Source of the DNA: Tubiluchus corallicola
Taxonomy: Eukaryota; Priapulida; Priapulimorpha; Priapulimorphida; Tubiluchidae
Assembly (NCBI GenBank): GCA_030141605.1
Contig: JAQGDQ010000406.1
Coordinates: 58,464 to 122,463 of the forward strand
Length of the DNA stretch: 64,000 nucleotides
Direction: 5' to 3'
Below the pieces are notes generated by a model that ran no database searches, was not told where the DNA came from, and worked only from the letters and a program-made list of their open reading frames with translations. The number at the start of each line of letters is the position of its first letter. Positions within the stretch are counted from its first letter, which is position 1. Below, piece by piece: positions 1,156-64,000 of this stretch. The position numbers were made by a program, and so were the translations under genes.

Positions 1156-2690
1156 GATTCGAGGCTACTGCCCAGACGAGGCCACCATTTGCGGCGATCT
1201 ATATATCAAACGAAAGGTCTCGATCTAGTGTCGTGCCATTGATGGTTTATTTTTCGAATTGGGCCCACCGGAAGGAAGGGGAGGCGAAAAACCGCCAAAA
1301 ATGGCCCTTTTTCGGCCGTTTTTTGCAAAAGTTAAACGGCTGAGATGTAGAGAACGGGAATGGGCCGAGGAGGGTACTGGGTATGGATAGATAGCCAGTT
1401 CAGCGGTGGGTGTAGTAGGCATATTTAGAATTCCCGAGAGGGCCAGGGCGCCCCGCAACGGGCGTTTTCCCGGACGCAACGGAAATTTTGACCAAACAGC
1501 CTGCGGGAAAAACGTTCTAGCGGCGCCCAGTGGGACTCTAGGAAGGAGATATGGGCTCATCAGAAAGAGGAAGAACGGGGCTACACGATGATGTAAGGTT
1601 ATATTTTAGGGCAGGTCCACCGAGAGGAGTATTGACGAGTTAATTAGATGTTCTATTTTTCGCAATTTTCGCTTAGAAAACTGCTGACGCAAAACCATTG
1701 TTCTGACGACATCCATTGTTCTCTGTCTATAATCTTATAGCTTTAATTCAGCAAAAAGCTGCTACAGGCAAAGTAAACAAACAGTAGGCAGGACGTTACG
1801 GGCTTTGTGTTATAAATGAGGACTAGGTAGGATGTTCGCGTATTATTGATTACACGTGGTTTTTTATGCAAAATCTTTTGCTATTTATTATATTATAGCA
1901 CATAGTTTCAACTTTGTGAAAAATGTTTGGAATGGTTTTGTTGTAATGCTGTGCTGTTGGTGCTTGTGCTATAGGTGTCGTCATCATTGCCACCACCATC
2001 ATCATCATCATCATCAACATCATGATCACCACGTGAGGTGGTGGATTTGATGTGGTGTGGTGGTGGTGTGCTTTGTGTGTTGTGCTATGGATGGTGTGGT
2101 GGGGTGATAGGGTGTGTGGGGTGTGGTGTGGGTAGTGTGGTATGGAGTGGGTGGCGTGGTGTGTGGGTGGGTGGGTGTTGTGGTGCAGTGTGGTGTTATG
2201 GTGTGGTGTGGTGCAGTGCAGTGTGATGTGGTGGAGTATTATGGTGTGGGTGGTGTGGTGTGGTGTGTGGGTGGTGCGGTGTGGTGCAGTGGTATGGTGT
2301 GGTGCAGTGGTGTGATGTGGTGGAGTCGTATGGTGTGGGTGGTGTGGTGTGGTGTGTGGGTGGTGCGGTGTGCTGCAGTGGTATGGTGTGGTGCAGTGTG
2401 GTGTGATGTGGTGGAGTGATATGGTGTGGGTGGTGTGGTGTGTAGGTGGGTGGGTGGTGTGGTGCAGTGTGGTGCTGTGCGGTGATGTGGTGGAGTATTA
2501 TGGTGTGGGTGGTGTGGTGTGGTGTGTGGGTGGTGCAGTGGTATGGTGTGGTGTGATGTGGTGGAGTGGTATGGTGTGGGTGGTGTGGTGTGTAGGTGGT
2601 ATGGTGTGGTGCGGTGCAGTGTGGTGGTATTGTGTGGTGCAGTGTGGTGCGATGAGGTGGAGTGGTGTGGTGTGGGTTGTGTGTTGATTT
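1156..2690. repeat. Long dispersed repeat, copy 1, with terminal minisatellite
   Basis: From 1203 this segment matches 62628-64000 in the same orientation over more than 1.3 kb, at roughly 90% identity by eye with small indels. Its 5' part (1156-1260) also matches 42690-42800. Order: a GC-richer unique block (1156-1600), an AT-rich block (1600-1985), a CAT/CAC tract, then a G/T-rich minisatellite. No TIRs, LTRs or transposase were found, so its class is unknown. It could be a non-autonomous element with an internal minisatellite, or a piece of a larger satellite unit. Confidence 0.85.
1989..2690. repeat. GTGGT-type minisatellite preceded by CAT repeats
   Basis: A (CAT)n tract of about 35 bp is followed by some 650 bp made almost only of G and T on the plus strand (GTGGTGTGG, GGTGCAGTG). 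A higher-order pattern recurs about every 73-90 bp, marked by ATGTGGTGGAGT. Open frames on both strands (Val/Trp/Cys/Gly-rich and His/Thr/Pro-rich) come from the repeat and are not genes. Confidence 0.95.
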
Positions 2691-36505: not shown

Positions 36506-37165
36506 TGAACTAAACAGAGGAACTTTGGAAACTTAATTTGTAAAAATTTATGTTTCATAAAAACAAAGTAATGTATTATAGCCACGTTGTTGTCATTTAA
36601 TTTGCTTTGATAACCTAGTGTGTTGAACCATCCAACTAGTTGAAAATGCACTGTTAGAAAATGCAGTATGCTACTTTCATTCACAGACACTAGACAGAGG
36701 AACTTTCCGTTTAAATAAAAATTGAGGCTAGTAACTTCAAATGTCAACCTAAGATTTAATTTGTAAATATTTATGTTTCATAAAAACAAAGTAAAGTATT
36801 ATAGCCACGTTGTTGTCATCTAAATTTGCCTTGATAACCTAGTGTGTTGAACTGTCCAACTAGTTGAAAATGTACTCTTAGGAAATGTAGTATGCTACTT
36901 TCATTCACAGACACTAAACGAAGGGACTTTGGAGACTTAAAATCCATTTAAATAAAAATTGAGGCTAATGACTTCAAATGTCAACCTAAGATTTAGTTTG
37001 TGAATATTTATGTTTCATAAAAGAAAACTAAGTATTAGAGCCTCGTTGTTCGTCATCTAAATTTGTTTTGATAACCTAGTGTGTTGAACCGTCCAACTGG
37101 CTGAAAATGTAGTCTCAGGAAATGCAGTATGTTACTTTCATTCACAGACACTACACAATTCTCAC
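36506..37165. repeat. Tandem array of 223-236-bp units directly upstream of the MEP-1-like exon
   Basis: Two full units and a partial one, marked by CATTCACAGACACTA at about 36680, 36903 and 37139. Each has TTTATGTTTCATAAAA, GCCACGTTGTTGTCATC and GATAACCTAGTGTGTTGAAC. The third copy runs into the polypyrimidine tract of the acceptor at 37185. The copies differ by small indels and about 8-10% substitutions. Confidence 0.9.
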
Positions 37166-43149: not shown

Positions 43150-44515
43150 AAAAATTAACTCGACATTTAAAATAAGGCCTAACTAAAAATAGGTAAATGT
43201 GAATGGCGCAGAATATACAGGTAAACACTGCAGGCAAAAATTTAGCAGAACATTATACATGGTTAATTAACAATGCTAATAATCCAAAATTTCATATTAT
43301 AATAAACAAACACAAAATTGAAGAAATAGACAACATCAAATACTTGGGCCTACTCATTGATAACAAATTAACATGGGAAACACATAACATACAAATTAAG
43401 TCGAATTACCAGAATAATTTCAAAACTAAGGCTATACGTTGACCAATATATTGTGAAACTTATATATAATTCATTAATTTTCTCTTATTTACAATATTCC
43501 ATCTTAACATGGGGCACGGCTTTTGCATCAATTCAAAAATTAATACGGACACAACAAAACAAAATAGTAAAATTAATAACTTTTGCTTCCAAATATGATC
43601 ATGCTACATCATTGTTCATAAAATTACACATTTTAAAGGTAAGAGCAGGAGATATTTATAATTTTGAGTTGTTTAAATTGATGTATAAATTCAATGCTGG
43701 TTTATTACCAGAACTTTTTAGTGAATATTTCACTAATGTTTTTGATATACATTCCTACTTCACAAGAGCTGCTTCTAATGAACAGTATTTTGTAGAGAGA
43801 TTTTTACCCGACATGGTTTCAATAGCTTAAAATCACTAGGAGTTAAATTATGGAATTCGCTGCCAAAGGATATCTTTGAAGGTAGCTTATTTTCTGCTTC
43901 CAAAAAATACACAAAAATCTTACTAAATGGATATACTTGTAGTACATAACTTGTAAGACTAATAAGCAAGATAGCAAGTTCTTTTTTTCTTTTCTTTATT
44001 CTCCTCATCTCCTAAGTAATTGTTGCTCTTTCTCATACTTACTTTTTCTCATAAATTTTTCTATATTACACTTTTTTGATGCTTATTTTTTCTTTCCATA
44101 CTCGCAGTTTTTAACTTTACTCACTGACCTTGGTCAAATTCCCCTGTTAATAAGATTCCATTTGAAACTACTACATATAATAATCCTAGTTAATGAACAA
44201 TTGTATTGCTTTGTTTAGATTTAGGTATATAACTTTATTATTTTTTGCTTTCAGTTCTTTTTGGATAAGTTGTATCATTTATACTGTTTTTATTATTATT
44301 TTTTTCTTATTTGCTTTTGTTTTTGTTATCTGCAGCATCACCGTTAATTTTTAATATACTAATCTATTTATAAGAAAGGGCAGGAGACTAGGTGAGCCTA
44401 TGGTCCTCCCCTGCCCTGCTCCATGATTATAATTACTTTATATTTTAAAAAAATTTGATGTCAAACTAATTGGAGAAAATAAATGTTCTATGTCTATGTT
44501 ACAAAGAGAATATTT
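43150..44515 (+). mobile_element. LINE 3' part (CR1/L2-like) with complete 3' end
   Basis: IDNIKYLGLLIDNKLTWETH (43319-43378; KYLG block) is followed, after one frameshift at 43442, by an open piece 43453-43830: LIYNSLIFSYLQYSILTWGT (thumb), LIRTQQNKIVKLITFASKYD, LFKLMYKFNAGLLPELFSEY and HSYFTRAAS. It continues in another frame to VKLWNSLPKDIFEGSL (43849-43890). The 3' UTR has an inverted pair AGGGCAGGAG / CTCCCCTGCCCT (44377-44417), able to form a stem-loop, then A/T-rich tail sequence with AATAAA. It is 5'-truncated, with few breaks, so it is a younger insertion than the other CR1-like pieces. Confidence 0.85.
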
Positions 44516-44519
44516 AAAA

Positions 44520-45890
44520 GCCTCTCGCATGCTCAACTAATATGTTCAAATTTGTGAAATAAATGACTTATGACTATGACTAACACTAGAACTTCGAAAA
44601 CTGTTTTCACCATGTTTTTTAGTTCTAGATCTTGGCATATATATCATGTAAAATGTATATTTAAAATTATTATGCTGATTCCTTTCTTTTAATGAATTGT
44701 AACATATATGGCAGACATTCACCATTCAGTATTTTAAAAGTTATCAGTTGGGACAGTCTTACCCATTGTGGATTTATAATGAGCTAATGTCTGTCTATGA
44801 ACTATCTCTATAAACAAACCTAAGTAAGCGCCCTATAATGGACATATTAATTTACCCAATTTCTCGCACTAGACAAAAATAAAAAATTGATATTATCAAT
44901 GCACGATAATTTTATTATTGCTTTTCTGCAGTTTAGGTACTTTTATTATTTTTAAATACGTTCAAGAAGTTGACAAGAACATTTATTAATTTTGGTTTAA
45001 GACTTAATTTTTTGCATACACTAGAAATAATTATGTTTATTAAAATTTTGGTCAAAGAACCAGACACACCCTTTCGGGGGTGCATTTAACAATCAATCTA
45101 ATAATATTAATAATAATAATAAAAATCTGCTATTATACTCCCTAATTTTTGCTGATGCTTAACCAGAGCCAAAGAAACTCTACTTCAGCTTTATTGAAAG
45201 GAGCCAAATCATATAACTTTTGTCCGAGGCACAGAAAACATGCAAAAAGAGACAATTCGGATCAAAATCAAACATAGTCAAATCAAACGTGAATCAGTCG
45301 CGGTGCATTAGAAAATAAAGTTCAGTAAAGTTAAAATGTAGCATAGCCAAAGTGCGGCGCTGTACGCTCATTAAAAATAATAATAATATGGATTATGATT
45401 CTGGTTAGATGATTGGAACTTATTTACAGATGTAAATAATTGTTTTTCGTAGTGTAAAGACGCAGTATGGTACCTGTAAAGTACAGATTATAATTACTGA
45501 TGACCATTTGCTAAATATTATAGGTATAATTTTAATGTTATAGCTTTTTTTCTGTTCATGGGTGCCATAACTCATAAGATTCAATTTGTTTACTATGGAG
45601 TATGGGTCATTTATTGAAAATAATATTAGTACATATTACTGTACATTTAACATTCTCTACAGAATGTTTGAAAACATAAATAATAAGCTGTACAATCATC
45701 TGATAATAAATACCATATCACAAGTATTATTACGATGTAAACACGAGCAGTAGAGTGGAAAAATTTTAATGAGTGGAAAAATAGACACGTTATTAATGTT
45801 TTATCGTGAAGTGATCTCCTGAAAATTGAGATTTTTGCTACAGTTAAGGCTAAGAGGTAAACAAAGTGAAATGTAAATGCTTTAATCAAC
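44520..45890. other. AT-rich intergenic DNA with AAT microsatellite and possible LINE/SINE tail
   Basis: 45100-45123 is an AAT repeat. 45300-45390 ends GTGCGGCGCTGTACGCTCATT followed by AAAAATAATAATAAT, the style of tail seen on CR1/L2-type retroelements. No coding region is supported on the plus strand. Confidence 0.4.
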
Positions 45891-46080
45891 ACAATATATG
45901 TGCTTGCATACCAGAACTGTTCATAAGTCAGTATAGTTAAAACTACGTTTTGATGCTCAAAGTAGAATGACCCAAAAACTTGGTCAAATCTCAATTTTTC
46001 GTAATTTATAAAAACCAGCTCAAAATATATTGGAGTTTTATATTCTAGCATCAGATTATCAAGAAAGTATACAAAAAACA

Positions 46081-46190
46081 GTCTACGGCCATATCACGTT
46101 GAAAACACCGGTTCTTGTCTGATCACCGAAGTTAAGCAACACGGAGCTTGGTTAGTACTTGGATGGGTGAATACCAGGTGCTGTAGGCTT
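46081..46190 (+). pseudogene. 5S rRNA pseudogene (head of the retroposon)
   Basis: Starts GTCTACGGCCATATCACG and ends GGTGCTGTAGGCTT, both standard for animal 5S rRNA, with GATCACCGAAGTTAAGCAAC and GGTTAGTACTTGGATGGGTG in between. Length is 110 nt instead of about 119. The missing nine bases fall right after GGATGGGTGA, inside the C box of the internal promoter. It keeps the A box (AGTTAAGCA) but would bind TFIIIA less well. It is a retroposon head, not a functional rRNA gene. Confidence 0.9.
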
Positions 46191-46594
46191 GCGGGATGCC
46201 CACACTGTATCTCGACACTAGGCGGAGGAGCTGCACAAGCAGTCAACGGCTAGAGGGCGGAGGAGGTCAAGTGACCCCAACGGCCATGTGTAGAATAGTA
46301 ATCCTTCCAAATCAGGAATGGAGCCCCAAAGGCGGACCAGTGCAGCATGCTCACTGACTCCGGCAGCTCCTGCAGCCAACTTGGTGCCAAACGTATCAAT
46401 CCGCTTTCCTTTGGACTTTCCAGGGAGGAAGAGAGGGGGTTCCTGTTGTCTGGGCAACTCAGGATCCCCATACACCTTGCCCAGGCGTACGCCCTTTAGA
46501 GGCCACAGTCGACACTGCAGCTCCATCAATGTGATCAATAACTGACTCTCTTGGTGCACACTCCATTGTCTTCCGAGACAGAAGGATGCCAACA
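46081..46594 (+). mobile_element. 5S rRNA-headed retroposon (SINE3-like), 514 bp, exact 12-bp TSD
   Basis: The element starts at the first base of a 5S rRNA-like head (46081-46190) and continues with a GC-rich body of about 400 bp, clearly richer in G+C than the surrounding DNA. It is flanked by the exact direct repeat ATACAAAAAACA (46069-46080 and 46595-46606). The host is TIR element T45; the related copy at 56.5 kb has no insertion at the equivalent place. A 5S-derived head plus unrelated body and a target duplication define SINE3-class retroposons. The body is not one I recognise, and no LINE-like 3' tail or A-tail is obvious. A 139-codon minus-strand frame across the body is probably incidental. 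Confidence 0.88.
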
Positions 46595-47059
46595 ATACAA
46601 AAAACACTAAAAATTTAATTTTATAACTTCTTACCAACTTTTCTGTCTAAAAACTAGTACTGCAATTGTAAAAAGCTCCTATTTTCAAATTCTGATAGTA
46701 ACTCCTAGAAGCTGTCCTTTTGTTTCTGGTTTTTCTTTTGCCAAGCCCAGATCTTCGTCAGTAAGAGCCATGGATTTAAACATAACTTTAATGTGCTCTT
46801 GCAAATCGTGGTTGCACACGACAAAAAACAATGGCTAACTTTAACAGCGATTTTCTCAAGATTATGTAAAACTTTTCAGTGCATAGCTTGCACTTCACCT
46901 TCAACGTGGAACATTTCTAGCTTAGAAATAACATAGAGCGATGCGCTTTTTTTCAAAATGATCCTCACGAAATGGAGATTCAGGATATGTGAATAACTAG
47001 AAAAGCTTAGTTGCCGACTTATGGACGATTTTGCATGCAAGCACACATATGATCTGATT

Positions 47060-47290
47060 ATTACAATGGAAAATTATAATCAGCTTGAAATTAGATAAGC
47101 CAGTATGTCGGGAAATATTGTATAACAGCACATCCCTTTGATTATCATAAAGCACACACTCAGACAAAAAATGTTTTGTAGATTCCACTAAACCACACTC
47201 ACACAGTGGAGAATCGACACTTCCAATCTTATGAATATAGTAATTAAGTTTAGAGTAGCCCGTATATAATTGAAAAGTTTGGAGAACTGT
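47060..47290 (-). pseudogene. LINE C-terminal Cys/His block
   Basis: Reads YIHKIGSVDSPLCECGLVES and TKHFLSECVLYDNQRDVLLY. A C-x-C-x7-8-H-x4-C pattern closes the ORF2 of RNase H-bearing LINEs. Stops precede it. Confidence 0.8.
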
Positions 47291-47806
47291 GACTTTGATG
47301 GAAAATCAAGTCTTCTATTGAAGATCACAGACAAACACAAATTGTAGAAGAATCTACCATTTGAAGTGTGATTTCACCGAAACCGTTATTTATAAAGTAA
47401 AGTTTTTCGGCTTGCAAAGTTTAAATACAGGAATTTACATCCATTAATTGAGCATAACGGGTAGCCTTTTTACCCAAGGAATCACCGAGATCATTTCCAA
47501 TAATATTACAATGACCAGGAATCCACATAAAGTTAGCATGAATATCAATACTATAAAAAAGTTTAACATAATTTTTTACACTGTCACATAGATCTTTGTA
47601 ACAGTTACAAGACCATCCTAAAGATACAATGCCTACTGAATATAGATTACCTGAAAAACTGTAACAATTTTGACATCTGCAACTACAAAGATTAACTGCT
47701 CTACAACAAACTGTAACACAGCAAAAATGGCAAAGAGTTCAGTTAACAAAATGGATCCGTACAATGCTATTAATTTACTGATCTGATAAAATTCCTGAAA
47801 ATGTGA

Positions 47807-48391
47807 CTAAATTACTGCTCCTGCTGCACATGGTCCAGGATTGCCAGGACAAGAACCATCTGTAAACGTAAAAACAGAATTATCTGGAAGACTGCATAAA
47901 GAATTTAAAACAAAGGCTTTCCCAAGAAGTTCTTGTGCTTCTGACCTATTCTTTGAGGATCCTAGTACATTCCAATAATGAGGTTTAGCCACAGGAATAT
48001 CTGTAAAATTATCATTTAGATTGAAATCAAATTCCGGAACCACTTGAGAAATTATAACATTCCCATTCTTCTCAACCTCCGGTGCCAAAGAAACAACTTT
48101 TGCCATAGGAGAAATAAATCTGATATTACCGAAACCATCTGCTTTAAAATCTTCTAGTAGTTGTTTCGGAGGATTAGATAGTGGTTTAGATTCAATTTTT
48201 GCATACTCTGTAACAGCAAGTTCAAAAAATTGTAGATCCAGTGGAGTTACACCACTGCCAACCTCCACTACTTCAACACCAGCAGTCAAAGGAAGATCCA
48301 GACATAAAGACAAAGCCTCATCTGAATCACGAGCATCATTTAAACTGTCAACAAAGTCTGATGACCACCTTTTTTGAGCAGTGTCAAACAT
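47807..48391 (-). pseudogene. LINE pol remnant: linker joined in frame to RNase H start
   Basis: A 194-codon open frame. Residues ~1-30 (FDTAQKRWSSDFVDSLND) belong to the linker between endonuclease and RT. From ~35 on it is the region after RT, ending in RNase H (VFTFTDGSCPGNPGPCAAGA). All RT motifs are missing, yet the frame is open across the junction. RNase H then continues with stops: LTELFAIFAVLQFVVEQ, a degraded third block, and WIPGHCNIIGNDLGD near 47510. Confidence 0.75.
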
Positions 48392-48819
48392 ACTTTTGCT
48401 TCCATAAGTTCAATTTATTCTGGGGAAGATTTAACTCGTAAAACTTTTTCTGATGGAAGTTAAGATTTTTTATCTGCTACACAGCTACCATCCCACCAAT
48501 AAGGTTTCCTCCTAGCCTTTCTGGCACAAACTGATTTGATAGGAATCACTTCATCTATGCATGAAGATAAAGTACAGCAGAAGGAATTATATAAATTGTC
48601 AACAGAAACATTGTCATCACCATCCTGTAACTATTCACCAAATTTCTCATCTGTGTACTCAGAACCAATTAGTATTTTTAAACAACCTAATATTTTTCTG
48701 AACAAGGTTTGGCCTAAATCCATTAATGCTAAACTCAGAAAAAAATAGCTACATGGTCTGATCTTATGTATTTATGAGACAAAGTAGAGCATTCTGCTGC
48801 CTACAATGACAAATTTGGA

Positions 48820-49240
48820 GTTGAAATGACCAAATCTATTATACTGTTACTAAGTGTCCTTGTTGCTAGTCTGTCTCCCATTCAAAGCTCTTAGCATTTA
48901 AATATCCTACCAAGAGTACATTTTGTCTATTACAATTTTTGATTTCGTTACAAATAATTTGAAGCTCTCCGTGCTTGCCTAGAAGAGCATAAACAGATAC
49001 AGTGGCCAAGACTATACCCAAGTTTGTAAAACTATCTACAGCTGCTGCATCTACATTAGTATCTACAAACATTTTAGACTGTTTAACTGTAAATGAGGTA
49101 CAACTATCATTAATAAAAATTGCAACATCTCCATGATCATTGGGTCCTCTTGGTATAGAAAAACCTTTCTATGACATGAATTTAATTGGTGAATCAGGTC
49201 TCTCCCAAGTTTCACTTAGGCAAAGTACATCTATATTATA
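48820..49240 (-). pseudogene. LINE endonuclease domain, decayed
   Basis: Reads NIDVLCLSETW (E of the first catalytic block), a GPNDHGDVAIFINDSC block, and NVLLVGYLNAKSFEWETD, in which the usual GDxN/GDFN has become GYLN. The loss of that Asp and several stops make it inactive. Confidence 0.75.
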
Positions 49241-49806
49241 CTAGATAACAATGTTTTCAAAATAGTGATGTTCAAACGGATATGCCTTAGCAATGTGACC
49301 AAAGCGTGAGCAGTTATAGCATCTAATTACCGAAGATTTTCTTGAAGACACCATTTGGCCATCTTGCCTGAAACCTGGAATATGAATCAATTTCCAATCC
49401 GAAACTTTATCAATTTCAGAGTGAGTGCAACATACTCTCAAACAGGCATAGGTTTCCAGGAATCAGAATGTTGAAGTCTCTCCGCTTTTTCTACCTGCAG
49501 ATCTGAGGACTGTAAAACATCAAATACCAAACGAACTGGAACATTTCTCGGTACATTTTTAATATAACAAACATTGGGTTTACAGTTAGAATCAGCACCC
49601 TTAAGTGGATGAACAACAGCTGAACTACCAAACAGTTGACCTCGAAACCAGTGATTGATGACATCTAAAGCAGACTTACCCTCATGAGCATAAAGGGCAA
49701 TACCTCCACCAACTAAGCTATGTGTTAATTCAACTTTTTGAGAGATGTAAGGAAACTTCTTCAATTTTTTTATTATAGCACCACTTTTTAAAAGTAGCAG
49801 GGTCAT
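49241..49806 (-). pseudogene. LINE ORF1, central part and broken zinc knuckle
   Basis: Two overlapping open pieces (49806-49438 and 49441-49241). The first contains NVCYIKNVPRNVPVRLVFDV, an RNA-binding-type gag stretch. The second has WKLIHIPGF and RCYNCSRFGHIAKAYP, a C-x2-C-x4-H-x4-C knuckle whose last Cys is Tyr. One frameshift separates them, and the serine/asparagine-rich linker above 49810 is also broken. Confidence 0.7.
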
Positions 49807-50021
49807 CTACTTTATCTACATCTGCCATTCTATCCAAAGTATAAACACAAGAGTTCTTATAACAGCTGTTAGCATTACTTGCGGAAATAAGATTGCCATT
49901 GTTATTAGAATAACTATTGCTACCACTAGAGCTATTAGAAGAAATGTTTGCTATGCAGCTAGAATTTTCAGAAAAAACTGAAATAAAATTGTCATGTTTA
50001 TTTTCACAAGATTGAATGATG

Positions 50022-50261
50022 TCAATTGTATCCTGTGAATCCAGCTCCTTGATAGATGACTTTCCACCAAGAATACAAAAAGCAGATGCAAAATGAATTT
50101 ATATTTTTTATACTTTGCCAAATCTTTGTAAGATATAAAGCACAAATGTTATGCCACCATTTTTTACAAATATCACATGCAATCCAACCAGCGATTTCTG
50201 TAAAACATAAACTGCTGGGCACATCATAAGAATTACATTTATTACAATGATCAATAGCCAT
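50022..50261 (-). pseudogene. LINE ORF1, N-terminal PHD-like zinc finger
   Basis: From ATG at 50261 the frame reads MAIDHCNKCNSYDVPSSLCF, then GWIACDICKKWWHNICAL. The spacing C-x2-C ... C-x2-C-x2-W-x-H-x2-C is that of a PHD finger. It becomes unrelated sequence near 50100, then stops. A perfect 12-bp inverted repeat lies just 5' of it (50289-50338). PHD fingers occur in ORF1 of several animal LINE groups; the role is unknown. Confidence 0.75.
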
Positions 50262-50288
50262 TTTCCTCGACTTAGGCAGAACTAGCAC

Positions 50289-50338
50289 CACGGAGGTTAA
50301 TGCAATATAGCTATAACATTATATCGTTAACCTCCGTG
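50289..50338. repeat. Perfect 12-bp inverted repeat at the LINE 5' end
   Basis: CACGGAGGTTAA (50289-50300) and TTAACCTCCGTG (50327-50338) are exact complements around a 26-base loop that is itself partly self-complementary (AATATAGCTATA). It lies 28 bp upstream of the ORF1 ATG and between two retroelements, so it may mark a 5' UTR hairpin or an insertion junction. Confidence 0.9.
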
Positions 50339-50439
50339 AAGACTGATAGAGATCACTGGCAGCAAAATGAGAGAAACCAGCACTTTATTGTAAACATCTC
50401 CACAATTCATAGTTCTTAATTTCTTCAAACTTTTCAGAT

Positions 50440-51275
50440 GGAGGCATTGCTCACATAATGCTTATCACATTATCTCTTTGTAATGTAACAGATAAATGCT
50501 GGAATAAAAAGCTTGTAGACCTAGTCTCCCCCGAGACACATTGAATTCGTTTAGCTAAAGTACTAAGAAATTTTTTTCTTTCTGTGCCAAGAGTATCATA
50601 AGTTTCAATGGTAATTGGTACAAAATTGAAAATTGGCAAAAGGCTATTGTATTTCGTATATTTTTTGCTAACGGCTAATTAACTTGCCTAACCAACTAAC
50701 TAGTTGAGGCAGCCAAATTTGAGGGTGCCAATGTATTGACACAAGTAAAATCCCAAAGAAGCGACCCTCGGCCCAAGGGAGCAAAGTCATGCCATCCGGC
50801 CTTTTGCCATCTGACTTAGACAAACCTCTAATACTAATGGAACATGAGCAGAAGTTAAGGAATGACAAATTAAATCATTGACAGCCTGATGTCTTGAAAA
50901 CCCACCACTGCTTTTTAAACAACTTAGGCCATGGACTCCAGAACTATCTCCAAAAGTTGCACATTTGTATTGGTGAGGATGACAAGTATATGCACCCAAT
51001 CGAAGCACTGCAGCAATACGCAATTGATTATCATCTAAATGCAGACCCAATGGAGGGATAGGTAAGGCCTCAAGCCATGCATCAGCATGACCAGAAGATA
51101 TTGCTAATAGCTGTGCTTTATCAACCTCAGAAGGAGTCCTGGCAAACAAACTATCAAAAGATGGTATGATTAGAGGTTCGTCCCAAAATTTTTGGGAAGT
51201 TGAATCAGGTAAAGTTCTAACAAATACTTCAGCCTTTTCTACCCAGATCGATTTTGCTAAATTTAATTCAGACAT
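50440..51275 (-). mobile_element. C-terminal ORF of another non-LTR retroelement
   Basis: Open pieces 51275-50787, 50868-50668 and 50639-50451 share one protein over two frameshifts. It reads SSGHADAWLEALPIPPLGLH, RIAAVLRLGAYTCHPHQYKC (Cys/His cluster), SGGFSRHQAVNDLICHSL, SKSDGKRPDGMTLLPWAEG and FVPITIETYDTLGTER. This arrangement is a common C-terminal module of RT-containing proteins in marine invertebrates (W-L-x-A-L-P, CHPH, RPDG). The RT itself lies outside or was never included. It sits upstream of the PHD-type LINE in the same orientation. Confidence 0.75.
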
Positions 51276-51440
51276 AAGATTATTTTAGTGCTTACTAATA
51301 AGCAGTATATATTGGGCAATAAGAGGCCTTAAAATACTTCATCAACGAAATTGTTACTTCCAAGCAAGAACTTTAAACACATGAAGACATTACATTAGGC
51401 CTCATATGTATTATTAAGCATTTTCATGGATTTTTGGCAA
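51214..51440. repeat. 227-bp direct duplication, first copy
   Basis: Matches 51907-52133 with about eight differences over 227 bp. It covers the N-terminal codons of the retroelement ORF and its upstream flank. Confidence 0.95.
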
Positions 51441-51598
51441 AAAAAGGAGAATTTGGCAGAAAATTCAATAATTTTTAGCTTCCAATACGATAGTCATCAT
51501 TATGCAAAACCGTAGCCTTGCGGAGGCATGCTTAACCATTTTATGGCCAAACATATCAGGTAAAGTGACTAAAGTAATTTCTTCTATGTATTTCCTAG

Positions 51599-51767
51599 GC
51601 ATTATATATAATGCAAAAGTTTTATTAGGCGAAGCATTTTATTCTTTTGCTTCAGATATACTACTTCTAGGCATTTTATAGAATGCTGAATAAATTTTAT
51701 GTAATGTGAAGGGAAAACAAATGGTAAATTGTTTTGATGAAATTTTCCTAAGCATTTTATATAATGC
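51599..51767. repeat. Three 16-bp palindromes of one type
   Basis: GCATTATATATAATGC (51599-51614, perfect), GCATTTTATAGAATGC (51671-51686) and GCATTTTATATAATGC (51752-51767), each preceded by CTAG/CTAA. The related CTAGGTAAAGTG and ATGCCTAGG words recur at 58200-58300. Confidence 0.85.
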
Positions 51768-51906
51768 CAATTTGCTTCTAAAAGATTGTGTGAAATAATT
51801 TGTGTTTTATCTGTGTGCAAATCTCTGTGTTAAAAAGGTAGCTAGCATTTCTAATTAACATTCAGGTTGCATGATTGTTTATTCACAGCTGCTGCCTGCT
51901 GTACAA

Positions 51907-52133
51907 GTCCTAACAAATACTTCAGCCTTTTCTACCCAGATCGATTTTGCTAAATTTAATTCAGACATAAGGTTATTTTAGTGCTTACTAATAAGCAGTA
52001 TATATTGGGCAAGAAGAGGCCTTAAAAATACTTCATCAACGAAATTGTTACTTCCAAGCAAGGACTTTAAACACATGAAGACATTACATTAGGCCTCAAA
52101 TGTATTATTAAGCATTTTTATGGATGTTTGGCA
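51907..52133. repeat. 227-bp direct duplication, second copy
   Basis: Second copy of 51214-51440, offset 693 bp, same orientation. It is not followed by the rest of the retroelement ORF, so it is a partial duplicate or a second 5' end. Confidence 0.95.
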
Positions 52134-52287
52134 ATTTTGGATCTGACACAAAGTTCAGGCGGTTCACACTGGCCTCACTACTACAATTACATTAGTAGGA
52201 TGAATAGCAGAAAAGTGAAAGCCCTATAAGTGAACCAAAAATTCTACATTTAACATGCTGTACCCACAACCTAGAGTAGACATGATA

Positions 52288-53016
52288 TTAAATTTCTATT
52301 TCTAAATCCATTTTCTGTCTAACGTTCAATACTTTCTGTATCCTGGTATTGATCATCACTAATTTTTCTGTTTCGAATGTTTTTAAATCAACCTCCATAT
52401 CTTCTTCACAGTATATCTTTATAGCTTTGTCACACTTTAGTAAGTGTTCCATTGTATCATCATGGATTTTACACAAAGGACATTTCAGATGGTTGTTAAA
52501 CTTACTTTTGAAGTTTGTTTTCACTTTAAACATATTCAGTTTCCATTCTGTTATTTCATAGACTGTTTTTTTTTGGTTACACTGAATTACATAATCCACT
52601 GGATTGTTCCACTTTTCTGTAGCATTTTCCATAAATCTCAGTTTTTTCATTTTCTGACACATTTCTTTAGTAATATGCTCCAAATATTTACTAATAGCTA
52701 CTTTTATTTCTTGCTTCCATTTAGATTTGGTTATCTGTTTTTTGTTTGTTTCCCCATTTATATCTATTTCATACAACTCTGCTGTTTCTTTTATGTTTTC
52801 AGTCCAATTTCCATTTCCTTTGGAATACCTTTTTTGCACCTCTTTCTTCCTCAGAAATCCTCTGCATTGTGCATAACACAGTAACATCAATTGCCTATAA
52901 TATGTTCTTTGTCTTATGGGCCAAAAACTTAACATATTGATAGTGCCCCAATAACTTGTTTTTGAACTAATTTGGCTTAAGATTGCACACGTCATATCTT
53001 TCTGCCATCTTTCCAT
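52288..53016 (-). pseudogene. LINE ORF2 C-terminal domain
   Basis: A 242-codon open frame with helical basic sequence (WGTINMLSFWPIRQRTYYRQ near the start) and, near residue 190, HLKCPLCKIHDDTMEHLLKC, a C-x2-C-x7-H-x4-C block found at the end of many non-LTR ORF2 proteins. The length and lack of stops show this part is less decayed than the endonuclease. Confidence 0.8.
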
Positions 53017-53031
53017 TTCATTTAATCGGTC

Positions 53032-53478
53032 TCATGCTTCAATGTTATGTATTAATGACGGTATCACCACTGATTCAAACAAAAGAATTCTTATTCTCAT
53101 ACACTTTGTACCAACTTCTTTTTCATTACTCCCTGGCATCAATTCTCTCTTCATATATGCTACTTTTTCTCCTCTTTTACTTGTGCTCAAAGAATGATCT
53201 CCCTTTTCTGCAACATAGTCTCCTAAATATTTATATGGACAAGTTTCTTCTGGAAAACCACTTCTTACAAACAAATCATTTCTTCCTGCCCTATGTGTTT
53301 CTTTAACCTTGTTCACCATCATAAATTGTGATTTTAATTTACTAAATGACACCTTTTTTAAGTCTTCTAGTCTTCTACAAGTTGATGTCACTTGACTAAT
53401 GTTGCCCCTACATTGGCTTTCTGATATTTTTTGAGTTATCATGTTTTCATTTTGCTTCAAAATCACTCTTTCAAACAA
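53032..53478 (-). pseudogene. LINE ORF2, RT fingers joined in frame to the post-palm region
   Basis: A 148-codon open frame. It begins in the fingers (FERVILKQNENMITQKISES) and passes directly to DLKKVSFSKLKSQFMMVNKV and CPYKYLGDYVAEKGDHSLS, which belong after the YADD box. The palm, about 150 residues, is absent without breaking the frame. It ends GTKCMRIRILLFESVVIPSL, the thumb start. Confidence 0.78.
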
Positions 53479-54261
53479 TTTTGAAGTAGTACTTGTTAGA
53501 AATATGCCTCTTCTATTTTTAATTCACGTCTGCTACCCTTGTTCTTATATATTTATTTCATAGTCATATTCATCCATTCTTCCGGTATGATTTCCTGAAA
53601 TAAAACTTCATTCAGCATCATTTTTACACTTTGTAATAAATCACTGCCCGCAAACTTCAGCATCCCATTTTCCCAGTCTTAATTATGAACTGCTTTCCGC
53701 AACTGTTTTACTACCTTTTCAATTTCTTCAACTGTAATCAGTTCTATATCACCCTTTTTAAGTTCATTGATCATTTCAATATCTTTAATTACTTGGGTAA
53801 TATACTCTTCCATGGGCGACTCTATTTCATTGTATAGTAACTTTTGGTAAAATTTCGTGAATTCCAGTTTAATTTTAGTATTATCTGTTAGGAGTACATC
53901 ATTAGCATCTTTAATTCCACATTTTGTTTCTTTTTCTTTTTAGTCACTTTTCGTTTATATTTTCAAAAAGACCACCTTTTTGCTCTATGACTTCCACTAT
54001 CTTTTTTACTTTTCTAACATTTGCTTCTTTGTCACAATTTACTATGTGCTCATTTATCAATTTTTCTCTTTGGCTAGACATCCATTTTTCGTTTTGTGTC
54101 ACTAGAAGGATTCTATTCTTTTTTAACTTTCTTTTTATCTTTAGTAGTATTCTTTTGAAGCATTACCACTTCATTCCACTTGGTATATTTTTCATTTACA
54201 CTCCCACTTTCAGTCCATATTTCTCTAAGTTTCTGTAGCTGTAGTAAACCTAATTAGCTCA

Positions 54262-55011
54262 TCTTTTGATAACCTTTGTACTTTTTAATTGCTATTCTCT
54301 ACCGTCTTATCGGCATTATACCAATTAATACGCACTATTATGGTATTATGATCCGAAAACTTTTCTTTGATTTTCCCATTTTCTTCTTCTAAGCTGCACA
54401 TCCCCCACAACTTTTCCTTGTCAATTTTCATATACTTCATGTCATCTAATACTTTTTGACCAACTATATAGTAATCTAAGACTGATTTTTCCTCACCCAG
54501 TACTCTTGTCCACAGACCTTCACATTTCTGAGATGAGTTTAAAATACAGAGATTGTTTTTTCAAGTTTGCCTTCAGGGCTCTACTCACTATTATTTCCTT
54601 GTACTGTGTTTCCTATCAAGAGTATCTTTTCATTATTTCTTTCCACTGTTCCACATATGAATTTATGTGCAAGTACATTTCCTTCAGGTAATCTTTCTTT
54701 GTCCTGCTTTCCTGAGGACCATAAATAACTCCCAGTCTGACTTTTATTCTGGTGTTGTTTATCACACACCATATTGCTTCATAATTGGTTTCTATTCTTT
54801 CCACTTTCACAGTTACTCTATAAAGTTTCTTTTTGATAGCTAGTAATAAACCACCTTTTTCCTTGTCTTTTCTCTCCATTCTGATCATTTCATATCCTTG
54901 AAATTCAATTCTGTCATTTTCTTTAAGGAATGTTTCCACTATGGCTATACTTCTTTGTTTTTTCTTTATTCCTTGACAGTTTGCATAAATTAGTGCAAAG
55001 TTCTTATACAA
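54262..55011 (-). pseudogene. LINE ORF2, endonuclease domain
   Basis: Starts FALIYANCQGIKKKQRSIAI (first Asn block of AP-type endonucleases). QGYEMIRMERKDKEKGGLLL and RLGVIYGPQESRTKKD (Tyr-Gly-Pro block) follow. The open frame ends at 54616 and the rest of the domain follows with stops. The final SDH-type block reads decayed. Confidence 0.75.
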
Positions 55012-55387
55012 TGTTTTATTTCCTAAAGACCTCTTTGTTCTTTTAGAATCTTTTTAGATTCTCCAGCTTTTTCTTTATTTACAGATTCAGCAGTACTATT
55101 TCCAATTTTAGTTAGGCTATTGTGTAGATGGGTAAGTGTATTTACACTATTTACATCCTTATCGTTTGCATCTACATTTGTCGTATTGCTTTTGCAAACC
55201 CTTGTAATGCTTGCATTAGTCCTTCTGTGTGCTTTTGTAGATTCTCTCAGTTACTAAAAAAGGCTCATCTTTCTTATACGCCATTTTATAAGTGTCTTTT
55301 CCGACCGATCTCTGTTTGCTCTGTGTCTTCTTTACCTTCATAATTTCTTCTCATATCAAATTTATTTTCATGATGAGTATCTAATCT

Positions 55388-56049
55388 CTACTTTTCACGA
55401 GGGTTATAACTCCAGTAACCATCCCTCCAGTGTGTCACCATGATATATTTTCCTCTAAACCCAGTTTGTATTCTGGTATTCGTGCCTCCTCCATTTGTAT
55501 CCTTGTCCCAAGGATATTCATGCCAGTATTTACAGTTATTGCCATAATGACAATATTTGCCATGTTCCCACTTCCAGCAGGTTTCCTTCATTTGCCAAAT
55601 CTCTCGTGTCTGTACCAACAACTTTTCCCTAACTTACAGTTTAGACATTTGTGGTAACGTTTGCAAATAGGTACTTTCTTTAACTGACCTTCCACATGAG
55701 CATCAAAGGAACTACTATTATTCCTCCCTGTTGTTTGCTTCTCCCCCATTTTTATGCTTTTCTTCTTTCTTTCTTCAGCTATTCTTGTCATACTCTTCTT
55801 AACTTTCAACTTTTCCCCTTGACTGTCTGGGTATGTTTTCTTACTTTGAGATGGTTCTTTTCCATCTTCTCTAAGTCTTATATATATTGAATCTTTAACT
55901 TCACCTCTTTTTTGTTGCTGTCCTTGTTTTGAGGATGTATTTAAAAATTCAGTCTTGTCCTGAGTCACATCTTTATACTTAATTTGTGAATATTCTGTTT
56001 GTACGCCTTTATTGTGCATACTATTCTCTATGCATTTTAAACTGCACAT
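55388..56049 (-). pseudogene. LINE ORF1 with two CCCH zinc fingers
   Basis: The first open piece (56049-55588) is Lys/Ser/Gln-rich and ends in CKRYHKCLNCKLGKSCWYRH. The second (55621-55388), one frame over, gives CWKWEHGKYCHYGNNCKYWH. Both fit C-x8-C-x5-C-x3-H exactly, the spacing of RNA-binding CCCH fingers of the tristetraprolin type. A one-base frameshift between them breaks the ORF. The fingers suggest RNA binding in the retrotransposon particle (inference). Confidence 0.8.
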
Positions 56050-56104
56050 TCTCTATGCATTTTAAAAAGCTTGGTCATATTGTTGCTGGTATTGTTGTCA
56101 CATT

Positions 56105-56767
56105 TGTGTGCTTGCATAGCAAAAGCGTCCATTAAAAGTCAGCTATTAAACTTTTCTAGGCGTGCACATATCCCGAATCTCCATTTCATGAGGATCATTT
56201 TGATACCAAACTCATCGCTCTACGTTATTTCTAAATTGAGATAATTCCCGCTGGAGTTGAGATGCAGATTATGCACTGAAAAACGTAACCTTGAGAAATT
56301 GCTATTAAAGTTTGTTTTCTTGTCGCGTTTCTACAAAACGCTTAGTAACCACGCAAATGTTGGTTGCTACGGACTTTGCAAGAGCACATTGAAGTTATGT
56401 TTAAATGTAGTAGATGGTCTTTTCTGACGAAGATCTGGGCTTGGCAACGGCAAAAACCTGAAGCAAAATGACTGCTTCCACGAGCTACTATCGGAGTTTG
56501 AAAATACAACTTTTTTTACAATTACATTACTAGTTTCTCACCAGAAAAGTGTGTACAGGGTTATAAAATTAGATTTTTGGTATTTTTTAACATTTTCTTG
56601 ATAACTTGGCGCTAGAATATAAGAGTCCAGTACGTTTAGAATTTGTTTTTATAAAAAAAAACAAAAAATTGATATTTGACCAAATTTTTAGTGCATTCTA
56701 CTTTGAAGCATCATAACCTAGTTTAAAGTATGCCGACTTATGGGTGGTTTTGGTTTGCAAGGACACA
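56105..56767. mobile_element. TIR element 'T45', copy B (uninterrupted)
   Basis: Begins TGTGTGCTTGCATAGCAAAA and ends with the reverse complement of TGTGTCCTTGCAAACCAAAA. Internally it aligns with copy A in inverse orientation, including TGACGAAGATCTGGGCTTGG and GCGCTAGAATATAAGAGTCC. At the position of the 5S retroposon in copy A it reads AAAATGTT or its complement without any insertion. 663 bp, no ORF. Confidence 0.85.
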
Positions 56768-57483
56768 TTTAACTTGAAAGCTGTAGGAACCTAAAATTTT
56801 GCATAAGGATATTGTGGATGATTGTGCAGACTATAAAGGGGCCTGGTTTTTCACTGTCCCAATATGGCCCTCAAGTATACCCATTAAATGGTTCTGCATG
56901 ATACATTATTACATAGTTGGCATTTTTTAATTCTAATGTAGGAATGAAGGTGCCACAAGATGCATATTCTAATTTTTTACGAAAATGCTGATCTATGAGA
57001 ACAGTAAACACTTCCTATGATTTTCTTATAGAAACCATTAATTGAGGAAAAGGTTTGTGCCAGATCCCAAACCTTAGTACTTCCATTCTGGTTGTGTTTC
57101 ATACAGGATAGGTGCAGAAACACCTACCTACTTCATGTTTAAAATGAAAGGACAGTTTTACATTGAATTAAAAAAAGGCAGGCAAATAAAGCTTGGAACA
57201 CTGTGTTTCTAAGTGACTAAAAATACCAGCAATTAATTAATCATGTAAATGACTGTAACATCAGGGCAAAAAAAGCAGCCTCCTCACACTGTGGCATATG
57301 GTATACGATGTTATGGCTGTTCCAACAGAAAAGTAATCGTATAGCACCGGTACAAGAAGCAAATGCTGTTACAAACTAAACTGCTTGACTCACTTTGTGA
57401 TACACATACGCATATTATGCAATCCCACAATTATTCTAAAATCGACTACTATATTATTTTTCTTGTTGCCACTCAGTTATATT

Positions 57484-57847
57484 CAGGGCCTATTTCAGCC
57501 TAGGTGAGGCCCGGGGAAGTGGGGCATGTGAGACCCCATCGGGGGGGGGGGCAGAAAATTTTTGAACTGCTAGAATGCCGGAGAAGCATTTTCGAAGAGC
57601 AAATATGGAGTTATACAGTTGTTAAAGGAAAGAACAATTGAAAGAAAAACTGCTTTATTCTCAAGACCAGTCCTTAATACTTGTCAATACTGGCAAACTT
57701 CGCGCGTGCAGCAAGAGAGAGAGAGAGAGGGAGAGAGGAGGCAGTATGTTCGCATATAACAAAAAAATGTTACCTTGGCACGAGGCCCCCCTAGAGGGTG
57801 AGGCCCCGGGGAAGTATCCCCACTTCACCCCCTTGAAATAGGCCCTG
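57484..57847. mobile_element. hAT-type MITE, 364 bp, exact 8-bp TSD
   Basis: Ends CAGGGCCTATTTCA ... TGAAATAGGCCCTG (14-bp perfect TIRs), flanked by the exact repeat GTTATATT (57476-57483 and 57848-57855). The next TIR bases diverge, but a GAGGCCCGGGGAAG / GAGGCCCCGGGGAAG pair recurs in direct orientation near both ends. The interior has a poly-G run (57541-57552) and a GA repeat. No coding content. Confidence 0.93.
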
Positions 57848-57859
57848 GTTATATTTACT

Positions 57860-58735
57860 TATTCCGTATCAAATCACCGAGTTGTCTCCAGGCTAGCTCA
57901 GATTAGATCTGAGCAAATCTGAGATGGTCACTTGGGAGGTTTTTAGCAGTTTAGGTGAATTAACATGGTATGATCCATTTTTGTTTTCTATAGAAGTTTT
58001 TTATGATACCATTAAACAATTAACTCACCTGTTTACTTAAACTCCTTGCTTAATTTAATACATTGATTAAGCCTTTTTACGTATTCTTTACAATACCTAT
58101 GTATTGAACAAAAAATTTAGCAAAAGTGGGATTTAACACGAATTATGTTCCTTTTACACTTTGCCAGAGCCACTTTTCGCATTCTGTATAGATCCTACCT
58201 ATTATACAAAATGTCTAGGTAAAGTGTGAAGGTGCCGTTCCAAAAACATTTATTTCATTTTTCCGGAAATATAGAGATGTTATGTGAAATGCCTAGGAAC
58301 TTTTTACAATGTCTAAATTTTACACATTGCCTGTAACACATACTCATCCGAACGAGGCTGTGTAGTGCTAAACTAGGTATATGATATGTACCTGAGCATT
58401 GACGTTGCACTATCTTGCATAGCTGACTGGTAATCTTTTTTGACTAAATTTTTTTGATTTACATTTTTTTATTAGCTACCGAAAGCATGTACCCAGGGCT
58501 TTAAAAGTCTGCTTGAAATGGGAGTATTAGTAATCTGACTGCAGTTAATAATAACCTTTTTTTTCAGCAAGACATTTTTGCAGTTGATTCCTAAGTATAA
58601 GCAAGATGGCTATGTGAAGAGAAACTGAATTTTGACTTTCCACAGCCAACATCTTCTTTTATGATTGTTCGTGTATAGCTTGTGGTTGCCTTCAAGCATG
58701 TGTCATTTTTGAAATCACTAAGAATCACTTGGAGA
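57860..58735. other. Upstream region of RSPRY1
   Basis: AT-rich, with a short segment (58195-58330) carrying CTAGGTAAAGTG / ATGCCTAGG palindromic words like those at 51.6 kb. TTTTTTTTCAG at 58556-58566 is a plausible acceptor for the exon that carries the RSPRY1 start codon. No CpG-rich promoter is evident. Confidence 0.4.
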
Positions 58736-58738
58736 CCT

Positions 58739-58932
58739 ATGGGGGCTTGTGTTTGTCGGGAAAAGCAATCACAAACAAACGAGAGTCAAGATGGAGTTAT
58801 TCATCTTCCGGGTAGTTATGTTCCATCTTCTTATGTGCCAAGTCGTGTTGAAAGCATGAGCAGCAAAAACTCTGCAACAGTGGATTCACTTATTTTGGAG
58901 ACTCTTACTGTTATCAGAACTTTAGTCGATAA
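58739..58932 (+). CDS. RSPRY1: RSPRY1 homologue, coding exon 1
   Basis: ATG at 58739 gives MGACVCREKQ, a likely N-myristoylation start (Gly2) with nearby Cys. An upstream in-frame ATG (58682) would add 19 residues. The exon continues through a polar linker to DSLILETLTVIRTLVD and ends two bases into an Asn codon at a GTATGA donor (58933). With the following three exons it matches the N-terminal helical region of RSPRY1, a protein that in other animals carries a SPRY/B30.2 domain and a C-terminal RING finger (probable E3 ubiquitin ligase). Splice phases agree at every junction (2, 0, 1, 0). Those domains lie beyond the window, so only the first ~180 residues are visible. Substrates are unknown. 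Confidence 0.9.
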
Positions 58933-59396
58933 GTATGATTAATTACAATTAAATGTATCGTATTAGCATGGACCTACTAAAGGTATCCCATTTCATATTA
59001 AATGCCATCAAATTCATCCATTAAATGCATAAGCCCATTATACGATTGTGAAATTAGGTTTGCATATTTGCTTAACTAGGTATACGGTGACTAACAAAAA
59101 TTTTTGAGTGTGATGCAAACTAAAAAAAATCAATTACTTGATTACGAACTGCTGCTTTTTTGAATAAATATCACATGTATGTTGCAGACAGTTGGTAATT
59201 TTCATATCTTAGAACTTTTGGGCTCTGCGTAGTTTGTAGTGATTAAGCATCAAAACAGCAACAACAAATTTCACTAGTTTCTTCATCAGTTTAAGAAAAA
59301 TCTTGTAACTAAATTAAGCAAGTAACGTGAAATAACTCAGTAAAATTGTAGCCTTGTTTTTTTTTTAATTTTTTTTGTCAATAGTCACTTTTGTAA

Positions 59397-59669
<273 letters not shown>

Positions 59670-59984
59670 TAAGCAAATGAATTGTTTATGTATTTGCATA
59701 GCTAATATATTGTAATACATCTAGTCAGCACAAAATGTCGCTAGTAGACTTATAAAAATTGATCTCAAAAAAAGAAAAGAAACAACACAGAGCTGCTATT
59801 TTTTTGTTGTGTTGCTTTTCTAAATCTAAAACTGAAAAATGTGTTTCAGACAAAATTTTTGTTTGAACAAATACGTACGGTATAAGCAGTATTACTGATA
59901 TTTTCGTTATTAGTAATCGAATTCATCACTTCAGATAAAATCTTGTGAAGAGTATGCATGCCCTGAATTTCTTTTTTATTTCAG

Positions 59985-60111
59985 GAAACTGTTATGAAGC
60001 TGTCAGATACATTGCATGTATCCTATAATCTTTCAATTGTTGGTCGCCAATTTCCAACAAAACATCGCAACATTGCTGTGGTCTTTGGTTGTATAGCTGA
60101 AAAGCTAGCTG
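59985..60111 (+). CDS. RSPRY1: RSPRY1 homologue, coding exon 3
   Basis: The acceptor TTTTTTATTTCAG ends at 59984. The exon reads ETVMKLSDTLHVSYNLSIVG and KHRNIAVVFGCIAEKLAG, the family pattern KHRN-x-x-VxGC-x-AEKLAGP. The donor GTAAGT falls after the first base of the Gly codon (60111). Confidence 0.93.
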
Positions 60112-62627: not shown

Positions 62628-64000
62628 TCAAACGAAAGGTCTCGATCTAGTGTCGTACCATTGATGGTTTATTTTTCGAATCGGGCCCACCGGGAGGAAC
62701 GGGAGGCGAAAAACCCCCAAAAATGGCCCTTTTTCGGCCGTTTTTTGCAAAAGTTATACGGCTGAGATGTAGAGAACGGGAACGGGCCGAGGGGGGTGCT
62801 GGGTATGGATAGATAGCCCGTTCAGGGGTGGGTGTAGTAGGCCTATTTAGAATTCCCAAGAGGGCCACGGGGTCCCGTAACGGGCGTTTTCGCGGACCCA
62901 ACTCGCGATTTTTTCGAAATTTTGATCAAACAGCCTGCGGGAAAAACGTTCTAGCGGCGCCTGGTGGGACTCTCGGAAAGAGATATATAGCTCTTTAGAA
63001 AGAAGAAGAACGGGGCTACACGATGATGTAGGCTATATGTTAGGGCAGGTCCACCGAAAGGAGTATTGGCGAGTTAATTAGAGGTTCCATTTTCGTCAAT
63101 TTTCGCTTAGAAAATTGCTGACGCAAAGGCATTGTTCTGACGTCATCCATTATTGCTTATAGCTTTAATTCAGCAAAAAGCTGCTTTGCGTTAGATAAAC
63201 AGACATACAGTAGCTGCCTGCTGGCTTTGCGTTAGGTAAGTAGGCAGGATGTTACGGGCTTTGTGTTATAAATGAGGACTGTGTAGGATGTTCGCGTATT
63301 ATTGATTACACGTGTGTTTATACGCAAAATCTTTTGCGGGGCCTTTGCTATTTATTATATTATAGCACATAGTTTCAACTTTGTGAAAAATGTTTGGAAT
63401 GGTTTTGTTGTAATGCTGTGTTGTTGGTGCTTGTGCTATGGGTGTCGTCATTATTGCCACCATCATCATCATCATCATCATCAACATCATGATCACCATG
63501 TGAGGTGGTGGATTTGATGTGGTGTGGTGGTGGTGTGCTTTGTGTGTTTTGCTATGGATGGTGTGGTGGGGTGATAGGGTGTGTGGGGTGTGGTGTGGGT
63601 AGTGTGGTATGGAGTGGGTGGCGTGGTGTGTGGGTGGGTGGGTGTTGTGGTGCAGTGTGGTGTTATGGTGTGGTGCAGTGCAGTGTGATGTGGTGGAGTA
63701 TTATGGTGTGGGTGATGTGGTGTGTGGGTGGTGCAGTGTGGTGTGGTGCAGTGTGGTGTGATGTGGTGGAGTCATATGGTGTGGGTGGTGTGGTGTGTGG
63801 GTGGTGCAGTGTGCTGCAGTGGTATGGTGCGGTGCAGTGTGGTGTTATGGCGTGGTGCTGTGGTGTGATGTGGTGGAGTATTATGGTGTGGGTGGTGTGG
63901 TGTGTGGGTGGTGCAGTGGTATGGTGTGGTGCAGTGTGGTGTGATGTGGTGGAGTGGTATGGTGTGGGTGGTGTGGTGTGTAGGTGGTATGGTGTGTAGG
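62628..64000. repeat. Long dispersed repeat, copy 2, running off the window
   Basis: Direct-orientation match to 1203-2690. It starts abruptly at ATCAAACGAAAGGTCTCG, without the 1156-1202 part. It carries extra bases (TCGCGATTTTTTC near 62903-62916) and a duplicated CTGCTTTGCGTTAG segment near 63182-63235. The G/T minisatellite begins at 63505 and reaches the window end. Confidence 0.9.

Follow-up and report, generated by a model that had tools for sequence, protein, structure and literature searches.

In a window of 64,000 nucleotides from the priapulid Tubiluchus corallicola (the whole stretch that was analysed; contig JAQGDQ010000406.1 of assembly GCA_030141605.1, positions 58,464 to 122,463), an insert at 46081-46594 is headed by a sequence resembling 5S ribosomal RNA (rRNA). 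We are highly confident that it represents a damaged member of an abundant family of short interspersed elements (SINEs) with a 5S-derived head, presumably transcribed by RNA polymerase III (Pol III) and mobilized by a long interspersed element (LINE). For the family we demonstrate the copy number, the common ends, target-site duplications (TSDs), truncation of copies, an empty site and the near-identity of the head to the host 5S gene.

The insertion and its empty site

The insert lies within a host element with terminal inverted repeats (TIRs), a second copy of which is found in the same window. The parts are as follows:

45885..47050, strand not assigned: host TIR element that received the SINE, ends approximate (inverted arms 45894-45909 and 47035-47050; alignment to 56105-56767)
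46069..46080, plus strand: left target-site duplication ATACAAAAAACA (exact repeat of 46595-46606)
46081..46189, plus strand: 5S rRNA-derived head, 109 nt of 119, lacking 10 nt in the region of box C (RF00001, 83.4 bits; set against a consensus drawn from 24 gene-like 5S loci)
46190..46499, plus strand: GC-rich body without TTTT, about 33 nt missing near its 3′ side relative to full copies (copy alignments; Rfam)
46500..46594, plus strand: 3′ part, which closes with GAGACAGAAGGATGCCAACA as copies of the family usually do (852 and 925 exact genome 21-mers; 29 further loci)
46595..46606, plus strand: right target-site duplication ATACAAAAAACA (exact repeat of 46069-46080)
56105..56767, minus strand: second copy of the TIR element, the related empty site (82.3% identity, 644 aligned positions, insert absent)

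The original prediction, made from the letters of the window, had described a 5S-headed retroposon of the SINE3 type, and this description is supported by the 5S head, the target duplication and the related empty site. None of the three findings that it had named as fatal was made: the sequence is multi-copy, its body is not the 5S spacer at the loci examined, and TSDs do flank other copies. As it had claimed, the insert opens with the first base of a 5S-like sequence: Position 46081 coincides with the beginning of a match to Rfam family RF00001 (model 1-120, E 7.4e-17), which is the sole Rfam match at the gathering threshold in the whole window. The proposed 12-bp duplication is likewise exact and unique, as ATACAAAAAACA brackets the insert on both sides and has no further occurrence in the window on either strand. 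The predicted empty site was recovered as well, by fusing both flanks of the insert with a single copy of the duplication and aligning them with the minus strand of 56105-56767, and this pair of sites defines the ends of the SINE insertion. The predicted GC-rich character of the body is also borne out, with 53.7% GC in the insert compared with 35.4% in the window; an Rfam scan of 44000-60000 at E up to 1 yielded nothing except the 5S part. The forward frames of the window copy contain stops in all three cases.

A dispersed family with a common 3′ end

The insert was searched against the window's own 343.5-Mb assembly, in which the window lies on contig C2081, and the element that the original prediction had proposed as a possible new family proved to be present in many copies. 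Among 2170 first-look candidates 40 were scored, and the 42 resulting matches comprise the insert itself, 39 other near-full-length copies at 85-90% identity and 2 partial ones. Moreover, exact 21-mers from the 3′ part occur at 852 places for the tail and at 925 for the segment just upstream, with reversed controls occurring at 0. Because these counts are of exact matches in a family with about 4% divergence, we infer a size of very roughly 2000 copies. The divergence from the consensus averages 3.8% (1.9-8.2%) over 54 near-full-length copies, that is, over 59 SINE loci minus five whose heads are missing or truncated (L073, L078, L080, L084 and L089). The family is built of a 5S head of 119 nt, a GC-rich body about 430 nt long and a 3′ end that is usually GGATGCC followed by AAC or AACC repeats. 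Outside the assembly, no copies of the element were found in four exact-pattern scans of IMG/VR, in GTDB contigs with one exact pattern, or in phages and plasmids.

The 3′ end GGATGCC (or GGATACC) was located by script in 26 of the first 30 copies. Two of the remaining four, L008 and L016, show a GGATGCC-type end in the alignment and had been mis-anchored by the script; the other two, L004 and L022, differ. Throughout these 30 copies the 3′ end is usually followed by short AAC or AACC repeats. Allowing no mismatches and with the 3′ anchor misplaced in at least L008 and L016, we found exact TSDs of at least 7 nt around 17 of the 30 copies, and TSDs of at least 8 nt around 12 of 28 further copies found through the tail, a count that excludes L080 at a contig edge. 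In controls that paired the 5′ flank of one copy with the 3′ flank of another, repeats of at least 7 nt arose in 11 of 300 pairs, repeats of at least 8 nt in 4 of 300 and 6 of 500 pairs, and repeats of at least 12 nt in 0 of 800. The TSDs vary in length from 7 to 16 bp among the copies. Of the 28 tail-found copies, 24 are full length and four begin inside the element, at consensus positions 70, 187, 195 and 390; the last of these (L078) carries a 12-nt TSD. This combination of full-length and 5′-truncated copies, TSDs of variable length and a constant 3′ end is the hallmark of LINE machinery working through target-primed reverse transcription.

As a separate observation, the 3′-terminal 101 nt of the SINE are arrayed in tandem at one locus (L096, G000:C258:3780-4260), where three head-to-tail units repeat every 110 bp with the same short spacer. 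On contigs C38, C91, C140, C159 and C241, exact tail 21-mers taken from the first 100 listed places follow each other on one strand at distances of 81-296 bp. Such tandem SINE tails are a possible start of SINE-tail-derived satellites.

The head and the resident 5S gene

The RF00001 search of the genome scored 47 loci, of which 30 were fetched and 29 analysed, L031 having been dropped by a filter for central matches. These 29 loci fall into 24 gene-like ones, in which TTT directly follows base 119, and five SINE copies, in which the sequence continues into the body. The consensus of the SINE heads differs from that of the 24 gene-like loci at only four of 119 positions (2, 12, 59 and 97), and the five SINE loci individually show 2-5 differences from the gene consensus. 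An A at position 59 is also present in 7 of the 24 gene-like loci. All five SINE loci have an A at position 97, whereas the 24 gene-like ones never do; the A is not absolute among the SINEs, as L004 and L022 have a G there in the 30-copy alignment. Positions 63-65 read AGA in the SINE consensus and in 23 of the 24 gene-like loci, with CGG in L037. Judged by this likeness, the front end of the SINE is derived from the 5S rRNA gene of the host animal itself. Seven other SINE copies score 100.7-116.3 bits against RF00001, compared with 83.4 bits for the window copy.

Because AGA at positions 63-65 is shared and the two consensus sequences differ at four positions only, repeated capture of new heads onto an older body may have held the head close to the host gene, so that it would track promoter changes of the gene. 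We regard this as rather doubtful; alternatively, the family may have been born recently from the resident 5S gene.

Beside these comparisons, we observed that 13 of the 47 listed RF00001 matches cluster at G000:C779:38483-48816, ten on the plus strand and three on the minus strand at the far end.

Losses in the window copy and subfamilies

The original prediction had noted nine missing bases in the C box and had asked whether the family lives with a shortened promoter. Compared with the consensus of the host 5S gene the number has to be corrected to ten, with six mismatches remaining in the head; the placement of the gap is ambiguous, since gene positions 89-98, 90-99 and 91-100 fit equally well, and it lies in the region of box C. 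The idea of a family with a shortened box did not survive the alignment: In 51 of the 54 copies the box C region is free of gaps, L065 and L070 have larger deletions across it, and the 10-nt gap occurs in the window copy alone. Because this gap is confined to one of 54 copies, a family-wide loss in box C is ruled out, and the shortened promoter is damage to the window copy and not a trait of the family.

The second loss in the window copy removed about 33 nt of the body; comparison of the copy (L001) with full copies such as L064 shows a GCCAC repeat on either side of it. As each of the two gaps is located between short direct repeats, both probably arose as deletions during or after insertion. 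From the lost box C bases we infer that this copy would no longer have promoter activity. Variable internal deletions are common around consensus positions 420-470, a frequency that is biased because the first 30 copies were picked by their likeness to a query deleted there.

Two further patterns were seen among the aligned copies. Four single copies, L065, L066, L067 and L070, have internal losses of about 65-115 nt at differing places with both ends intact. Of the 54 copies, 14 keep a 12-nt block at alignment columns 431-442 and 40 lack it, some of the latter through larger deletions. Copies with the gene-like T at position 12 keep the block in 10 cases and have lost it in 15, those with the variant A keep it in 2 and have lost it in 24, and three copies show another state; this pattern weakly suggests that the family may have drifted from gene-like to derived master copies.

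Proposed mechanism and points against it

In the mechanism that we propose, boxes A, IE and C of the 5S-derived head would serve as an internal promoter from which Pol III makes the source RNA. The transcript would then run through the body, because the element lacks a T4 terminator, and would stop at a downstream run of T: TTTT does not occur inside the insert, and its first occurrence downstream of the window copy is at 46619. The reverse transcriptase of a resident LINE would recognize the 3′ end of this RNA and, through target-primed reverse transcription, copy the RNA into the target at a nick. This process would create a short TSD whose length varies, would leave a short tail of AAC or AACC and would sometimes yield a 5′-truncated copy.

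Several points weigh against this account. An exact TSD of at least 7 nt is missing from 13 of the first 30 copies, and one of at least 8 nt is missing from 16 of the 28 further copies, these 16 including the three 5′-truncated copies other than L078. The absence of TTTT is weak evidence, as 42% of shuffled versions of the insert are likewise without it. The minus strand of the window copy holds a stop-free stretch of 142 amino acids (46218-46646), which we take to be a chance product of GC-rich sequence. Furthermore, copies were studied because they match the insert or its tail best, which biases the set toward similar and young ones, and two opposite-strand pairs among them (L027/L028 on C1599, with identical flanks, and L005/L011 on C1676, with overlapping TSDs) are not independent insertions because they are segmental or assembly duplicates. 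Finally, the partner LINE was not found in a small sample of six LINE loci from three families, none of which matches the SINE tail. This sample was drawn from an RNase H search with 38 matches, from which five 3′ regions were compared (four belong to one LINE family, and L095 is not LINE-like), and from an RVT_1 search with 150 matches, from which two loci were compared. No match between these regions and the SINE was better than E 0.19, and no LINE-like pairing of tail and reverse transcriptase positions was recognized by eye among the first 100 listed 21-mer places.

Alternative explanations

Besides a 5S-headed SINE with separate body and tail modules, the whole body might be the 3′ portion of a LINE, in which case the family would be a 5S head fused directly to a LINE 3′ end. 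GGATGCC with its short repeats resembles LINE 3′ ends, and the body is long for a SINE. Abundant tail-only copies of such a LINE would, however, raise the number of tail 21-mers, so that the tail count of 852 against 925 just upstream, both for exact matches only, speaks against this structure. In addition, none of the six LINE loci matched. We consider a fused LINE end unlikely. In the search for the partner LINE, a query with the tail returned 30 loci, namely the window copy (L061) and 29 others, all of which match the SINE consensus beyond the tail or as truncated copies.

Far less probable is that the insert is a 5S-bearing non-autonomous element with long terminal repeats (LTRs), that is, a terminal-repeat retrotransposon in miniature (TRIM) like Ajax or Cassandra, or a solo LTR. 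Ajax and Cassandra do carry 5S-derived promoters (PMC10886601; PMC10853983). The insert has no long terminal direct repeats around it, though, the TSDs found are variable and exceed 5 bp, and copies can be 5′-truncated and usually end in AAC or AACC; neither the two LTRs of such TRIMs nor, for Ajax, the 5-bp TSD is present, and this candidate was rejected.

We give next to no credence to a displaced 5S gene repeat, in which the body would be the intergenic spacer that normally separates the 5S genes of the species, a reading that the near-identity of the head to the resident gene could favour. All 24 gene-like loci are terminated by TTT, their spacers are unrelated, and none has a body match adjoining the gene, the match at L057 coming from a SINE fragment of 76 nt that lies apart from the gene, at the locus's far edge; the other five of the 29 RF00001 loci are SINE copies. 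For the loci examined the spacer reading is thus refuted, the element having neither the T-run terminator nor a shared spacer, and the body is not the normal 5S spacer, as the original prediction had allowed it might be. A one-off chimera, in which template switching during a single LINE event joined a 5S transcript to another RNA, is just as hard to credit and is refuted by the identical head-body junction at sites with different TSDs: Both this junction and the 3′ end recur (39 near-full-length matches, 30 copies aligned across the junction), and the 3′ 21-mers are found at 852 and 925 places.

Other features of the window

A decayed LINE open reading frame that includes the first part of an RNase H domain (47807-48409, minus strand) adjoins the host TIR element. 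Two TGTGG-rich minisatellite arrays with adjoining CAT repeats are located at opposite ends of the window (2033-2683 and 63461-63996). A 237-bp tandem duplication with 90% matches (36706-37153) lies at the start of a long stop-free frame, in which a C2H2 zinc-finger match falls below the family cut-off.

Significance and comparison with known systems

The 5S-headed SINE described here has a high copy number and, among the copies examined, a low divergence, and its parent 5S gene is present in the same assembly, which makes it useful for studying whether such SINEs change along with the 5S gene of their host. For genome annotation it is relevant that an Rfam 5S search also returns SINE copies. 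The understanding of how SINEs work is unchanged by this element.

Its copies are dispersed, with shared ends, different flanks and TSDs of variable length, as expected of a SINE, and the 5S-derived head with a box C that is intact in the family (51 of 54 copies) places it among the 5S-headed ones. AmnSINE1 is another 5S-headed SINE of the SINE3 type. SINE3-type elements resemble the family in having a 5S head with Pol III boxes, a body, a LINE-type 3′ end, TSDs and many copies; a difference is that the head described here is nearly identical to the present 5S gene of its host. Such elements occur in zebrafish and other fish, fruit bats and springhare (PMC3272025). The same source describes HaSE3 of Helicoverpa armigera and relatives, which likewise consists of a 5S head, a body and a 3′ tail and which has TSDs of 19 and 8 bp in two H. 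subflexa copies, with none detected for HaSE3.1 (PMC3272025). HaSE3 differs in that a tRNA-headed SINE has the same body and tail and an RTE LINE the same 3′ end (PMC3272025); no comparable partner was found for our element, on the LINE side among six loci of three families. At the level of titles and abstract openings, in a literature covered in part, no 5S-headed SINE of a mollusc or annelid came up, which is not proof of absence. Nin-SINE of the limpet Lottia gigantea is also an invertebrate SINE with its 3′ part in a tandem repeat, the PcH-sat satellite of Patella; it differs in its tRNA-type head (PMC11121367).

Ajax and Cassandra share with the family that they are mobile elements with a 5S promoter, and they differ in their LTRs and, for Ajax, in the 5-bp TSDs, neither of which the element shows (PMC10886601; PMC10853983). 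In Asteraceae, Cassandras reportedly mirror mutations in the promoter of the host 5S gene (PMC10853983), and by analogy such mirroring might also take place here. The element itself is a member of the known kind of 5S-headed SINEs, an ordinary mobile element that is well preserved.
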